Positions 37,004 to 44,190 of a stretch of 44,568 bases of DNA are shown piece after piece. Below the pieces are notes generated by a model. The model searched no databases. It worked only from the letters and a program-made list of their open reading frames with translations, and was not told the origin of the DNA. The number at the start of each line of letters is the position of its first letter. The first letter of the stretch is position 1. The position numbers were made by a program, and so were the translations under genes. Source of the DNA: a bacterium (lineage in GTDB: Bacteria; Cyanobacteriota; Vampirovibrionia; Gastranaerophilales; UBA9971); NCBI GenBank assembly GCA_037147175.1, contig JBAWVS010000020.1, positions 1 through 44,568 of the forward strand. Reading direction: 5' to 3'.

Positions 37004-37130
37004 AATAAAATTCTTTACCACACGCTCTTTTAATAGAATGATACCACATTTACAAAAATTTGCGCATTATTGGCAAGTTGTTTTCGTATTATTATATGTT
37101 TCAATAAATAATCTAAAGGAGGTCTTAATA

Positions 37131-37607
37131 ATGGATAAAAAAAGTGTTTTGAAATTAACCGGATCAATCTTAATTTGTCAAAGTGCAGGTATAATCGGCA
37201 GTTTTGCGACAGGAGAAAAAGCTTTAACGTGGTATAATTCTCTGAACAGACCCGAGTTTAGTCCTCCAAATTGGCTTTTTGCACCTGTATGGATAATTTT
37301 ATATTTATTAATGGGCATATCATTGTTTATGGTTTTAAAAACGGAAAATTGTTCCGGGAAAAAGCACGCTTTAATAATATTTGGTATACAGCTTTTCTTA
37401 AATGCCTTATGGCCTCCGGTATTTTTTGGACTCAAATCTCTTATGGGCGGATTTTTTGTTATAGTTTTGCTTTTGGTCTTTGTATTTATAACTTTTTATA
37501 AATTTTATAAAATAAGTAAAGTAGCAAGTTATTTATTGATTCCTTATATATTCTGGGTCAGCTTTGCGTCAGGTTTAAACTTGTCGGTATGGCTGTTAAA
37601 TTCTTAG
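37131..37607 (+). CDS. tspO: TspO/MBR-family membrane protein
   Basis: 158 residues from the ATG at 37131, which is preceded by a near-perfect AAAGGAGG site; the longer upstream frame has none. Five membrane helices are predicted. Family motifs include WYNSLNRPEFSPPNWLFAPVWIILYLLMGIS (helices 1-2, WxPPxWxFxPVWxxLY pattern) and QLFLNALWPPVFFGL (helix 3), with FASGLNLSVWLLN at the end. Known members bind tetrapyrroles or other hydrophobic ligands. It could be co-regulated with oxidative or porphyrin stress, but the sequence does not show it. Confidence 0.92.
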   Translation: MDKKSVLKLTGSILICQSAGIIGSFATGEKALTWYNSLNRPEFSPPNWLFAPVWIILYLLMGISLFMVLKTENCSGKKHALIIFGIQLFLNALWPPVFFGLKSLMGGFFVIVLLLVFVFITFYKFYKISKVASYLLIPYIFWVSFASGLNLSVWLLNS

Positions 37608-37849: not shown

Positions 37850-39085
37850 TTATTTTTTTGTACTATAAAGATTTGCAACTTCGGGGTTGATTGATAACCA
37901 GGTAAGTGAAGCCGCTTTTTCTTCGGCATCTTCAGGCAAATTAGTGATAAAAGTTCCGCCGTATCTTCCTCTGGAAAATTTTACGATATCTTGTTCGGAA
38001 AGTCTTTGCAGGGCTTTTCTTATGGTGTTGCTGCTTACTTTAAGATCAAGAGCCAGTTTTCCCATTGCAGGAAGTTTATCATCAAGCCTATAATTTTCTT
38101 TAATATATTGTTTAAGGTGAATTTCAACTTTTTCGTAGTTGTAAAGGCTTGCTTGGAAAGCAGGTGCGAATATTTCACTTTCTTTACCGGTCATTAATTG
38201 TTTGTCTGACGGTAAACGCAAAATAAATGTGCCGTATCTGCCTCTTTTTGATTGAAGAATGCCTTGTTCAACAAGTCTTTTCATTGCATCATGAACAGTT
38301 TTTATGCTTACTTTTAATGTATCAGCGAGTTCATAATGAGAAATTAATTTATCACCGATTTTGTAACCTTGAACTATAAGTTCTTTAAGATCCCTTTCCA
38401 CTTGGTCTACAAGTGTATCAGTATCAACTTCGTTTGATGCTTCCAGTTCGACTTCAGAGATTTGAGGTAATGCTTTAAGTCTCCAGGTTGATTTGTTTCC
38501 TTTCAATCCTTTTGATTCAATTATGTCAATATTTGAAAGATATTCAAGCGCTAATCTTGTAGTGTTTGGTGCGCTTCCAATGATTTTTGACAATTCTCTC
38601 GAAGAAGGAAGCAGATCGCCTAATTCATATCTGTTTTGGAAAATTAATTTTTTTAATGCTTCAATGGCGTTTTCTCTTTTTGAGGTTTGTTTTCTTAATT
38701 CTTTTTCAGGATTGTTTCTATCACATATAAATGTGCCGATACGTTGTTTTGATTCAACATAGCCAAGGTCTTCAATAAGCCTGATTGCTGTTTGAACTGT
38801 ACCTATACTTAAATTTACTTTGCCTGCAATAATATTTTTTTGAGGTAATAACTGGTTTGCTCTGATTTTATCTTCTTTTAAGCCTGTATTAATCCAGTTA
38901 ACAAGCCAATCTGCAAGAATACTGTCTTTTGTTTTTTCAGAATTCCTGAAATCAGGAAGTTTATCAGGCAATGCAGATATATCTATTCTTAGCAGGTTTG
39001 ATTTCTTAATATTTTTCTTATTATCAAGACCTAATAATTCTTCCGCGTTTCCCGAGTTTTCTTGAGTCCATAATGCTTCGCTCAT
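37850..39085 (-). CDS. Regulator with four tandem GntR-type winged helices
   Basis: 411 residues composed almost wholly of four GntR-like winged helix-turn-helix domains: 55-121, 138-203, 225-289 and 318-381. Each has the same order, a helix with basic ends, a G/D-D-x-LP-like turn, a recognition helix and a wing: SIGTVQTAIRLIEDLGYVES...GTFI; APNTTRLALEYLSNIDIIES; SIKTVHDAMKRLVEQGILQS...GRYGTFI; SSNTIRKALQRLSEQDIVKF...GRYGGTFI. No FCD, UTRA, aminotransferase or other effector domain is seen, so no ligand site is evident. Domains 3 and 4 are closest to consensus; domain 2 has a divergent wing. A strong AGGAGG site lies upstream. The partner genes are unknown. Confidence 0.9.
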   Translation of the reverse strand: MSEALWTQENSGNAEELLGLDNKKNIKKSNLLRIDISALPDKLPDFRNSEKTKDSILADWLVNWINTGLKEDKIRANQLLPQKNIIAGKVNLSIGTVQTAIRLIEDLGYVESKQRIGTFICDRNNPEKELRKQTSKRENAIEALKKLIFQNRYELGDLLPSSRELSKIIGSAPNTTRLALEYLSNIDIIESKGLKGNKSTWRLKALPQISEVELEASNEVDTDTLVDQVERDLKELIVQGYKIGDKLISHYELADTLKVSIKTVHDAMKRLVEQGILQSKRGRYGTFILRLPSDKQLMTGKESEIFAPAFQASLYNYEKVEIHLKQYIKENYRLDDKLPAMGKLALDLKVSSNTIRKALQRLSEQDIVKFSRGRYGGTFITNLPEDAEEKAASLTWLSINPEVANLYSTKK

Positions 39086-39730: not shown

Positions 39731-40363
39731 ATGTCATTTTCAAGAATAATAGCAGGATCTATTAAACATAAGTCCACGCTGGCAGGGAAAAGCGTAGCTG
39801 CATACACAAAAAAAACAGCAGTTCAGACAATTATCAGTACTGACAAAGTTGTCGATAATCTTAAAATTCCTGATGGAGTTCCGGATGTAATAAAAAATTT
39901 AGTTAATAAAGTTACAAAAAAATATCCTGAAGTTAAATTTGAAATAGAAAAATACACAGAAATACCTAAAGGTCTTGATGGAACGAGCTTGCTTTACCCT
40001 TTTAAGGTAATCGCCAAGAATGAAGAAGGCACCAGAGTAGCAGCAAGTGAGATGTTTAGATGGTTTGATGATCAAATAAAAAAAGCGGGAACTTCAGGTA
40101 TTAATTCATGTAAAGAGACTCTTGGAGAACTTGTTGAAACTATTGCAAGAAATGTAACCAGACCTCTCAGGAATAATTTGACACAGACAGAGGTAGAGAA
40201 CGGCTATAAAAAAGGCTATTCACAAGTTAAATCTAAATTACAAGGGGCTTGGAGCAATTATATGCAATCAGAAAAAGAATTTTCTGCATTATCAATGGAA
40301 AGTTATCTCAGGTACATAACTGAACATGATAAGCCTTCACCATTTATTTTTCCAAAAAAGTAA
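39731..40363 (+). CDS. Orphan 210-residue protein, function unknown
   Basis: Soluble, basic, no signal peptide or membrane helix. Residues about 45-105 look like an alpha/beta unit (KKYPEVKFEIEKYTEIPKG; LYPFKVIAKNEEGTRVAASEMFRWFDDQIKKAG); the rest is helical (RNVTRPLRNNLTQTEVENGYKKGYSQVKSKLQGAWSNY). AAGGAG lies 10 bases before the ATG, so translation should be efficient. It is next to the large control region of the divergent regulator and could be its target, which is only an inference from position. I do not recognise the family. Confidence 0.65.
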   Translation: MSFSRIIAGSIKHKSTLAGKSVAAYTKKTAVQTIISTDKVVDNLKIPDGVPDVIKNLVNKVTKKYPEVKFEIEKYTEIPKGLDGTSLLYPFKVIAKNEEGTRVAASEMFRWFDDQIKKAGTSGINSCKETLGELVETIARNVTRPLRNNLTQTEVENGYKKGYSQVKSKLQGAWSNYMQSEKEFSALSMESYLRYITEHDKPSPFIFPKK

Positions 40364-40598: not shown

Positions 40599-42209
40599 AT
40601 GAGTACTTTGAAAATCAATTCTAAAACTATTATTTGTTTATTATCTATAGCACTTTTTGCAAGCGGAGGAGTTGCTGTTAGCCAGCAGCAAACCGTTAAT
40701 ATTCTTTCGCAGAATCAACCTGATTATGTTTCAAGCATTAATCAAAATGACGTTGAACTGAAAATTAATGATGAAAATAAACTTAAAATCAACGTAACGG
40801 AACCAGTTAAACAGATTGACGGTCAGCTGTTCAAATCCAAAGACGAAATGATGAGCCAGTATTTTCAAGTTCAGAAAAAAATGGATATAGATGATATTAA
40901 AGTTCTCTGGGAATCAACTATAGACAGAAATCCTATAATTAAGTTTGCGCTAAAAAAATTAGCCATGCCGGCTGAACAAAGAAGAGTGCATTCTTCAATA
41001 ATGGCAAAAACGGTAAGTACTTTAATAAGCGGAGCATCAATTTTGCCGGGATTATTGGGTGCTGATCCCCTGACTTCAAGTGCCTCATCAGCGGCAGGAA
41101 CTCTTGCCGGCAGAGTGATTTCTTCAAAAGAAAGACCCAAACAATTTCCTTTGACTGATACGGAATTAATACATCTTGCCAGACTTGTCGAAGATTTGCA
41201 GGACAGAACGATTAAAAATTACTATGAATATAAAAGCGGACTCGAGTCCTTAAAGACAGCCAGACAAGAAGTCTTAAAACAAAATATGGCATATTCTGTT
41301 GCTTTTCGAGCTAAAGACCCATTGGCATTAATGGCAGCTAAGGCTTTATATGATAATGCAATTAAGGATGAAATGGATTTAAAGCAGGAAGTCAAGACTC
41401 ACAGGCTTGAATTAGAGAGACTTGCAGGAACCGATACACTAAATAACCTTACTTTAGGTAAAATTTTGATTTCTGATATCAAAGAAAAACCGGTGGCTCT
41501 TCTTCAACCTGTAGCTAATTTAAATACAAACAATTATTCGGATAAAAGCGTCAGGGAATTAGCACAGGAAACCGGTTCTGAGTTGGATCAGGATAAAAAA
41601 GACATGGTCTCGGATCTTAATATTCTCTGGAATTCTGCGGTGGAAAAAAATGAAACGATAAGATTTGCTATTTTGAAACTTTCAAATCCCGACGGAAAAA
41701 TTGAAAAAACAAGTGCGGTCAAAAAAATACTTTCTCCCCTGGCAAGTGTGGCCTCTATTATTGGAGTCGGTGCAGGCGATACTGTAACTGCTACAACTAC
41801 ACTTTTGAGCGGAAGCATGTTGAATTCACTTCTTTCTTCTGATAATGCAGAATTAAATGCCCATCTCTCTAAAGTTACAGATTCTGATTTGGTATTATTG
41901 GCTCAGGAAACAGATAATCTTCAGTTAAAGCTTGTTAACTTGTATTGTAATTATATAGGGGCATTATCAAATCTGAATTTTTCTGATCAAGTTTTAAAAA
42001 ACAGAAAAAAATATTATGAATCGGTGCAAAAAAATTCACCTGATCTTAAGGCAGTTGCAGATGTGTTCTACAGAGAATCAATCGCAGATCAATACAAATC
42101 AAGACAAAAAGTCCTTAGTGCAAGAATTTCACTCGAGCAATTTGTAGGAAATGAAGCGTTAATTTCTGTAGATAAAAGTCTTAAACAAAGATTATCAATT
42201 GCACCCTGA
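40599..42209 (+). CDS. Exported protein made of two tandem homologous units
   Basis: 536 residues. A signal peptide of about 28 residues (KTIICLLSIALFASGGVAVS) precedes a linker to about 95. Unit 1 (about 97-281) and unit 2 (about 337-521) align throughout: DIKVLWESTIDRNPIIKFALKKL with DLNILWNSAVEKNETIRFAILKL; TDTELIHLARLVEDLQDRTIKNYYEYKSGL with TDSDLVLLAQETDNLQLKLVNLYCNYIGAL, each ending RLAGTDTL or FVGNEAL. Both units have a Gly/Ala/Ser-rich hydrophobic stretch after 20-30 residues. The helix pairs at the end of each unit look faintly like TolC-type outer-membrane helices, an impression only. Periplasmic or envelope location; function unknown. Confidence 0.78.
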   Translation: MSTLKINSKTIICLLSIALFASGGVAVSQQQTVNILSQNQPDYVSSINQNDVELKINDENKLKINVTEPVKQIDGQLFKSKDEMMSQYFQVQKKMDIDDIKVLWESTIDRNPIIKFALKKLAMPAEQRRVHSSIMAKTVSTLISGASILPGLLGADPLTSSASSAAGTLAGRVISSKERPKQFPLTDTELIHLARLVEDLQDRTIKNYYEYKSGLESLKTARQEVLKQNMAYSVAFRAKDPLALMAAKALYDNAIKDEMDLKQEVKTHRLELERLAGTDTLNNLTLGKILISDIKEKPVALLQPVANLNTNNYSDKSVRELAQETGSELDQDKKDMVSDLNILWNSAVEKNETIRFAILKLSNPDGKIEKTSAVKKILSPLASVASIIGVGAGDTVTATTTLLSGSMLNSLLSSDNAELNAHLSKVTDSDLVLLAQETDNLQLKLVNLYCNYIGALSNLNFSDQVLKNRKKYYESVQKNSPDLKAVADVFYRESIADQYKSRQKVLSARISLEQFVGNEALISVDKSLKQRLSIAP

Positions 42210-42549: not shown

Positions 42550-42555
42550 ATGTTT

Positions 42556-44190
42556 ATGTTTTTTGTGGATTTAATATCCTGGATAATATTAATATATTTA
42601 ACATATTTTATAGTTTATAACATTGTTATTATTTATAATTCTTCGAGAGGAAGATTGTTTGATGTTGCCAAAAAAGACTATCTGGCAAAGTTTCAGCAAA
42701 ACTTAACAGTTGTAATCTATTCGCACAACAATTCTAACAAAGTTAAAGAGCTTATAGAATCACTAAATAAACAAGATTATGAAAGATATAAATATTCAAT
42801 AAATATCCTGCTTGATAATTGCAATGATGAGAATACAAAACTTCTTGAAATAATAGGCGGAACAAAATTATGGCGAATGAGTACGGATGTTAAACCCCTA
42901 GGCAAATTTAAAGCACTAAGCTGGCTCTTTGAAAGGATTTTGGCATGCGAAAATACTAATGCTTTTGTGTTTTTAGATGCAGAAAGTCGAATAAAAAGTG
43001 ATTTTCTTCAAAAAGTTAATGCGTCTGTTCATTACAATCCTGTCATTGTCGGAGAAGTTTTATATAAGAAGAACAATTTTTTAAACAGAATATTAAATTT
43101 CAGAAATAAACTAAAAAACAGAATTATAAGACATGGAAGATTTTATTCTTCTCTTGGAAATACGATTGATTCGGATCTTTTTATTATAAGACAGGAAATC
43201 CTCGAAAAAATCAAATTCAAAAAAACAGAATACGGTTTTGAAGAATATGAATATTCAATTAACTTAAAAAATAATGAAATTCCTGTTTTATATTCAAATG
43301 AAATAACAGTAACAAAACCTGTTAATGAAACTTTAAAAAGCATTGCAAAAAAAGATTATGAAAGAAGATATAAAGGCTTAATTACTCTGAAAAATAATCT
43401 TCCGCTTTTATTTTCAAGCTCTAATATTGGTGTAAAAGAACTTATTCTCTCACATATCTATCCGTCAAATACAATTTTTGTATTATGGACTGCTGCGTTG
43501 ATGTTTATTTATAAAATTTATCCTGTAACTTCTTTTTCGCAGACAGTAAGTTTTAAATATCTTGTCTGTCTTTTGGCTTCTAAGTTCGTAGTAGACGCCT
43601 ATTCCATGATTACGGCAAGATGCGGGTTTAATGATTACAAAAATGCTTTTGCACTATTTTTTATTACTCCTGTATTGTATGTGAAATCCGTATTTAAAGG
43701 TTTTTTGTCAAATTCTCAACCAAAACCTATTAAGAAAAAAAACAAAAAAGTAATAGCAGAAACTTTAAACTATGATAAAAACACAGTAAATGCCACGATT
43801 ACAAATGGGAGAAAAGAACTTCCATGTAAGCTTGAGATTGTAAAAACAGATGAATATTCTCAGGTGGTTTTTATTTTCAATAATAAGAGGCTTAGTTCCT
43901 CCAAACAGCCCCGCATTAATTATGCTGTCGAAGAAATTATAGGAAAACTTAGAAGTCACGGATTTGCGCTAAAAATTTGCGCAAACTGCGGATATTTTTA
44001 CATGCCGGAATCTATAATATCGCATTCTGACGGTGAACAGGGATATTGCCTTTATAATAATTTCAAAAACGCCTCAAAAGAAAAGGAATACGCCTATATT
44101 TGGGATGGATGTTTAAATATAATTCCCTTTCAGGCAAAAAATTATATTCTTCAGCAGTTGGGTGTTGAAAATAATAAAACAAGAACTTAG
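42556..44190 (+). CDS. Membrane glycosyltransferase (GT2-like) with Cys-bearing C-terminal domain
   Basis: 544 residues from the ATG at 42556 (TTAGGC upstream), or 546 from the ATG at 42550; numbering below counts from the earlier ATG. One N-terminal membrane helix (about 5-29) precedes a GT-A domain (about 50-285): TVVIYSHNNSNKVKELIESLN, DxD-like FLDAES at 141-146 and IDSDLFIIRQEILEKI. Membrane helices lie at about 305-325, 335-350 and 365-385. The tail (about 395-546) has a beta-rich part (TVNATITNGRKELPCKLEIVK) and Cys at 477, 480, 500 and 521 (CANCGYFY, GYC, DGC), compatible with a zinc site. It resembles processive envelope polysaccharide synthases, but the tail is not a PilZ domain. The glycan is unknown. 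Confidence 0.75.
   Translation: MFFVDLISWIILIYLTYFIVYNIVIIYNSSRGRLFDVAKKDYLAKFQQNLTVVIYSHNNSNKVKELIESLNKQDYERYKYSINILLDNCNDENTKLLEIIGGTKLWRMSTDVKPLGKFKALSWLFERILACENTNAFVFLDAESRIKSDFLQKVNASVHYNPVIVGEVLYKKNNFLNRILNFRNKLKNRIIRHGRFYSSLGNTIDSDLFIIRQEILEKIKFKKTEYGFEEYEYSINLKNNEIPVLYSNEITVTKPVNETLKSIAKKDYERRYKGLITLKNNLPLLFSSSNIGVKELILSHIYPSNTIFVLWTAALMFIYKIYPVTSFSQTVSFKYLVCLLASKFVVDAYSMITARCGFNDYKNAFALFFITPVLYVKSVFKGFLSNSQPKPIKKKNKKVIAETLNYDKNTVNATITNGRKELPCKLEIVKTDEYSQVVFIFNNKRLSSSKQPRINYAVEEIIGKLRSHGFALKICANCGYFYMPESIISHSDGEQGYCLYNNFKNASKEKEYAYIWDGCLNIIPFQAKNYILQQLGVENNKTRT

Follow-up and report, generated by a model that had tools for sequence, protein, structure and literature searches.

TolC-type OMFs (TolC, OprM, CusC and VceC; PF02321) are the described channels to which the protein analysed here is best compared. 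In PMC8277102, each such channel is described as composed of two similar repeats, whose origin is attributed to gene duplication, and the middle part of the repeat as a pair of transmembrane beta-strands. The locus presented here is derived from a member of the class Vampirovibrionia, which, according to PMC4040986, includes gut bacteria and carries the genes of a diderm envelope containing lipid A. The window, i.e., the whole stretch of 44,568 nucleotides that was analysed, contains a gene for a protein of two fused units, A and B, which by profile comparison are related to one OMF repeat each and in which no beta-hairpin is recognisable at the level of sequence.

Gene layout and the two homologous units

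The coordinates of the gene and of its parts are summarized in Table 1. Residues 10-28 constitute the most hydrophobic stretch of the protein, and a putative signal peptide is assigned on the basis of this hydrophobicity rather than of a signal-peptide predictor. Using a simple rule, a hydrophobic stretch preceded by K/R was found near the N-terminus in 99 of 101 distinct genes of the family, and a lipobox-like motif in one of the 101. The signal-peptide-like N-terminus agrees with the original prediction of an exported protein. The two homologous units of that prediction were also recovered, since A and B align along their full length with 56 identities (29%) over 192 columns with 6 gaps, and the Smith-Waterman score of 207 compares with a mean of 35 (sd 5.7, maximum 64) for 1000 shuffled sequences, which corresponds to a z of about 30. 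As had been proposed, a Gly/Ala-rich, moderately hydrophobic segment, whose maximal KD19 in the window protein is 1.29 in unit A and 1.39 in unit B, precedes long helices in both units.

Table 1. Positions of the two-unit gene, its parts and the regions of other loci in which an lpt-type block adjoins the A-B pair
Feature	Coordinates	Strand	Basis
Complete gene of the two-unit protein (536 aa)	40599..42209	+	ORF exact, ATG start
Putative signal peptide, about residues 1-28	40599..40682	+	KD19 2.11 at 10-28; cleavage site by eye
Unit A, residues 88-291	40860..41471	+	Domain limits; A side of tree
Unit A N-terminal helix, LW...RNP motif	40854..40964	+	Model helices 2-26, 28-38; register of OEP 5-27
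Unit A Gly/Ala-rich hydrophobic segment, at the place of the OMF beta-hairpin	40995..41132	+	Hydropathy, profile comparison; low-confidence model helices
Unit A predicted long helical hairpin	41157..41426	+	Model H103-154, H157-192; OEP hairpin Prob 90
Linker between units; end of gene A / start of gene B in split lineages	41472..41579	+	Locus comparison
Unit B, residues 328-533	41580..42197	+	A/B self-alignment, domain limits; B side of tree
Unit B Gly/Ala-rich hydrophobic segment	41715..41843	+	KD19 1.39 at residues 373-391; alignment
Unit B predicted long helical hairpin	41880..42146	+	H400-451, H453-488 of poor full-length model, pLDDT about 45-78 here
Regions with lpt-type block and A-B pair	L079 12514-15654; L086 5030-8024; L088 5337-8433

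Relation of the units to OMF repeats

Direct searches with the whole window protein yielded best E values of 0.57 against Pfam, 0.12 against NCBIfam and 1.9 against PDB sequences, and no match to OEP (PF02321) at E up to 10. The unit profile gave eight chance-level matches among PDB sequences (best E 0.093, a kinesin), none of them an OMF. When 48 units were scanned against Pfam at E up to 1, OEP was matched by nine of them with a best E of 5.5e-4, and no other family shown by more than two. Three of ten full-length relatives matched OEP over the profile stretches 98-187, 111-187 and 97-145, with a best score of 18.5 bits, which is below the curated cut-off of 22 bits; by comparison with these relatives, the best unit match would lie at about 20 bits. 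Among the titles and abstract openings returned by literature searches, no description of this family or of a single-repeat OMF was found.

The unit profile of 63 rows aligned with an OEP repeat profile of 40 rows, representing the 40 units of 20 own-lineage proteins, at Prob 79 and P 1.6e-5 (a P value from one comparison, not a database search) over 167 columns, placing unit positions 18-190 on OEP positions 5-186, and Prob rose to 88 and 90 in global mode. Reversal of the OEP profile reduced Prob to 0.1%, and none of 60 and subsequently none of 300 block-shuffled OEP controls reached the real score. The long hairpin alone matched OEP with Prob 90, a value attained by none of 100 shuffles. 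The N-terminal helix falls in the same register as in OEP, which was reached by one of 100 shuffles for the helix alone and by none of 100 for the N half, and lends weak support to the relation. The middle segment exhibits no similarity to OEP, with 66 of 100 shuffles being as good. Subsets split by motif, one of 24 A-like rows and one of the remaining 39 rows (the latter including some A-clade rows), each matched OEP independently with Prob 62 and 67. First OEP repeats alone gave Prob 27 and second repeats alone Prob 43; with unsplit OEP proteins Prob was 5, so that splitting into repeats raised the match. Among control families, for which 18 and 19 of 20 loci gave usable proteins, the coiled-coil OmpH gave Prob 0.8, and MFPs of the PF16576 type gave, with hhalign, Prob 10.2 over 89 columns and 20.8 over 112, both partial rather than full-length. 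However, OEP and MFP hairpins compared with each other reach Prob 87, so that similarity of the hairpin may be convergent.

The unit had been described as unknown, and this was borne out insofar as the window protein has no direct family match, whereas the profile comparison relates the unit to one TolC-type OMF repeat. Similarly, the strong match to TolC-type proteins that the original prediction had named as evidence against it was obtained in part: profile comparison recovers the helical portion, but Pfam gives no OEP match for the window protein and the beta-strands are unrecognisable.

In composition, the middle segment contains 3.3% aromatic residues versus 15.6% in OEP and 25.5% Gly plus Ala versus 15.1%. 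Helical periodicity is significant in its first half (p 0.0096) and not in its second (p 0.17), and strand periodicity is absent from both (p 0.97 and 0.95), in a weak test by which real OEP strands gave p 0.32 and 0.16 and an OEP long helix was called strand-like at p 0.02. Over the units, the median of the maximal KD19 in this segment is 1.31, and 1.6, a usual transmembrane threshold, is reached in one of 63 units; hence, the segment is not a typical transmembrane helix. At the hairpin tip, glycine occupies 92% of 40 OEP units versus at most 6% of 63 units at any tip column, using a criterion read from the own-lineage OEP alignment and not from a printed definition.

Structure prediction, which had been suggested as a check, produced a unit-A model (6 rows; pLDDT 67.7) with an N-terminal helix and, after a low-confidence segment, long helices at residues 103-154 (52 residues) and 157-192 (36 residues). 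Residues 45-99 are modelled as helices rather than strands at pLDDT below 50, and the proposal of a helical instead of a beta segment therefore depends on sequence statistics. A full-length model was discarded due to its pLDDT of 49. Foldseek with the unit model gave a best E of 0.04, with BAR domains first and OMFs repeatedly present at TMq 0.35-0.49. The nine VIA rows with at least 136 aligned residues comprise eight OMFs, 5azs among these, and one BAR domain; the OMF rows have Z of 7.5-7.9, a range that helical models commonly reach according to the tool. Since BAR domains score alike, these rows were not taken as proof, and the structural comparisons are compatible with an OMF repeat without being decisive.

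Distribution, gene arrangement and neighbourhood in the class

The profile search with a single unit, another of the checks proposed at the outset, used a profile of 48 units, out of 63 non-redundant units that were themselves drawn from 133 domains, and revealed matches in 372 of 382 genomes of the class and in 315 of 319 good assemblies. The search with the whole protein matched 58 of 60 close relatives and, across the class, 137 of 146 genomes. In a draw across the phylum the unit profile matched 182 of 386 genomes, all 182 within the class; of the 204 genomes without a match, 20 are listed (one of the same order, 19 of the same phylum), and the listed genomes outside the class have zero matches. 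Coverage beyond the phylum consists of one pattern-based scan whose reach is close relatives, and it returned two loci, one from a MAG named as Cyanobacteria and one from a MAG named as Gastranaerophilales. Viral contigs searched with the window protein gave no match. Taken together, this appears to be a near-universal, uncharacterised envelope protein family of the Vampirovibrionia (formerly Melainabacteria), a class of non-photosynthetic relatives of cyanobacteria. Matching genomes of the families f10, f11 and f12 carry one unit-profile match each, and some f8 and f13 genomes two or more. Up to five matches per genome were observed in f8 (e.g., G060), where the protein family may have expanded.

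A total of 69 loci were read, some genomes being represented twice, and comprise 12 fused loci, 52 split pairs and five single-unit loci, one of the latter (L011) being cut by a contig end. Thus, the proposed search for separate single-unit homologues located A and B on separate genes in 52 of 69 loci. The 12 fused loci correspond to eight distinct complete genes, all from family f1, to which the window belongs, and outside f1 the units are mostly encoded by two adjacent genes; L011 and a further f1 genome that lacks a match are uninformative on fusion. The split genes overlap by 4 nt in 38 of the 52 pairs and by 1 nt in six, a spacing that depends on mechanically chosen ORF starts, and A lies upstream of B in the pairs read by eye. 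In a quick tree of the 63 units, a branch with 99% SH-aLRT separates 31 rows, including all f1 unit A's, from 32 rows, including all f1 unit B's, and each side spans many families, although the position of some rows is uncertain owing to long branches. A very long branch on the A side carries the single genes of f8, f12 and f13, and no second unit was found beside the single-gene loci L083, L084, L085 and L087. The single genes of L083, L084 and L087 (f8, f13) resemble unit A and have long extensions at the N-terminus.

Because A rows and B rows lie on opposite sides of this tree, the fusion is younger than the duplication: an ancient duplication gave rise to the paralogues A and B, which were afterwards fused in f1. 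The internal duplication originally suggested for the window protein hence does not hold, as its halves are paralogues of old origin, which most of the loci read carry as two neighbouring genes and which are fused solely in f1.

Among 23 loci compared, no neighbour is common to all families, and the scanned neighbours are mostly housekeeping genes (lipoate ligase, PfkB kinase, DnaB, ribosomal S16, AIR carboxylase, FeoB, RecA, IspD and others). In three of 20 regions (L079 and L088 of f9, and L086 of f15) the A-B pair is adjoined by a divergent lpt-type block encoding LptA/LptD_N-like, LptB-like ABC and LptF/G-like proteins together with flagellar export genes, and a molybdopterin-oxidoreductase-type gene lies between block and pair; Pfam names were obtained for the L088 block and the separating gene of L079 and carried to the other loci by clustering. 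No lpt block was found within the stretch read in the third f9 locus (L080) or in other families. The lpt neighbourhood gives a weak hint of an envelope bridge linked to lipopolysaccharide export. An S49 peptidase gene is located downstream in the f8 and f13 loci L083, L084 and L087 (by Pfam for L083, by clustering for the others), and L083 also has a long upstream protein without a Pfam match. The genome of the window has 15 OEP matches and seven membrane fusion protein matches; the presence of these ordinary components makes the two-unit family additional to the normal efflux exits.

Several other genes of the window were noted. Positions 37038-37607 (+) encode a membrane protein of the TspO/MBR family (PF03073, E 1e-47), and positions 37850-39085 (-) a regulator of 411 aa that combines four winged-helix stretches of the GntR type in a single chain, an unusual tandem array of DNA-binding domains (PF00392, E 5.1e-40). 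An ORF of 210 aa without significant Pfam or NCBIfam match lies just upstream of the two-unit gene at 39731-40363 (+). Downstream, at 42550-44190 (+), is a family-2-like glycosyltransferase with weak Pfam matches below the cut-off, in which an N-terminal membrane segment and a C-terminal extension were recognised by eye.

A candidate divergent half-OMF and its alternatives

The preferred reading, to which a probability of about 0.5 is given, is that the window protein consists of two fused half-OMF-like paralogues, each a divergent OMF repeat minus the beta-barrel, probably assembling into a periplasmic ring of six repeats. Each unit would be a highly divergent homologue of one TolC-type repeat, in which an N-terminal helix with an N-P-like motif, the place of the OMF beta-strands and a long hairpin follow in order, the hairpin corresponding to the part that builds the alpha-barrel in OMFs. 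The two beta-strands would have been exchanged for the Gly/Ala-rich, moderately hydrophobic and probably helical segment, with loss of the hairpin-tip glycine. The paralogues A and B would normally be two exported proteins from overlapping genes, which are joined in f1. The ring could be built of three copies each of A and B, or of three fused chains in the manner of the TolC trimer, and of six A where one gene alone is present. Such a ring might serve as a periplasmic duct, bridge or spacer, with its hydrophobic collar docked at or inside a membrane, and would need no classical membrane-fusion partner. A bolder version, in which a beta-less half-TolC occurs throughout the class as A3B3 hetero-hexamers or fused trimers with an alpha-helical Gly/Ala collar, possibly serving lipopolysaccharide export, is considered doubtful.

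The main competing explanation is an unrelated exported helical-hairpin protein, such as a periplasmic scaffold, tether or chaperone, whose likeness to OMFs arose by convergence. The high score between OEP and MFP hairpins, the first place of BAR domains in Foldseek and the many unrelated helical chains that reach VIA Z of 7-9 speak in its favour, and it is a possible but less likely account; the end-to-end register with OEP including the N-terminal helix, the failure of all 300 shuffles, the low OmpH and MFP scores and the prominence of OEP in the Pfam scan, with nine of 48 units as compared to two for the next model, argue against it. The family could conversely be an ordinary, very divergent TolC-type OMF whose Gly/Ala-rich segment still forms two transmembrane beta-strands, since this segment resembles the OMF beta-hairpin in place and length and is rich in Gly, Ser and Thr. 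That is improbable in view of the absence of profile similarity in the segment, the scarcity of aromatics, the lack of strand periodicity in an admittedly weak test, the missing tip glycine and the helices rather than strands of the low-confidence model, and own-lineage OMFs keep two repeats in one chain in 20 of 20 proteins. The family was not filed as an OMF (PF02321), because it stays below the OEP cut-off, shows no recognisable beta-strands in its sequence and lacks the tip glycine; the N-terminal helix and long hairpin are present (H2, H3, H4; N-helix weak), and two repeats in one chain are found in the fused f1 genes and not in split lineages.

A two-component alpha-helical pore-forming protein, made of paralogous subunits from adjacent genes with a hydrophobic head between long helices, would account for exported paralogues of this layout. 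The family resembles such proteins in layout, and one chain of this kind, 6r1j, occurs among the VIA rows with Z 7.5. Nevertheless, presence in nearly all good assemblies of the class, where a secreted weapon would be expected to have a patchy spread, and the profile register with OMF repeats render this explanation very improbable.

Separate-gene and fused states are both alive in one class. With OMF-like repeats encoded singly at most loci and joined in one family, the transition from a gene pair to a single chain would become directly studiable. If the strands were really swapped for a helical segment, the periplasmic helical barrel would be re-usable with a different membrane part.

Compared with known systems, the family resembles OMFs in repeat length, element order, the N-P-like motif, a Leu-rich end of the last helix that closes in Gly and, in the fused form, two repeats per chain. 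It differs from OMFs in having few aromatics in the segment, no recognisable beta-strands and no tip glycine, in the distribution of its repeats over two genes at most of the loci read and in scoring below the OEP cut-off. With periplasmic adaptors or MFPs of the HlyD, MacA and AcrA type it shares export and a long alpha-helical hairpin; however, the profile match to these is partial and does not have the full-length register seen with OEP. Wza-type outer membrane barrels are alpha-helical, and by analogy alone this family might conceivably traverse the outer membrane with alpha-helices rather than a beta-barrel.
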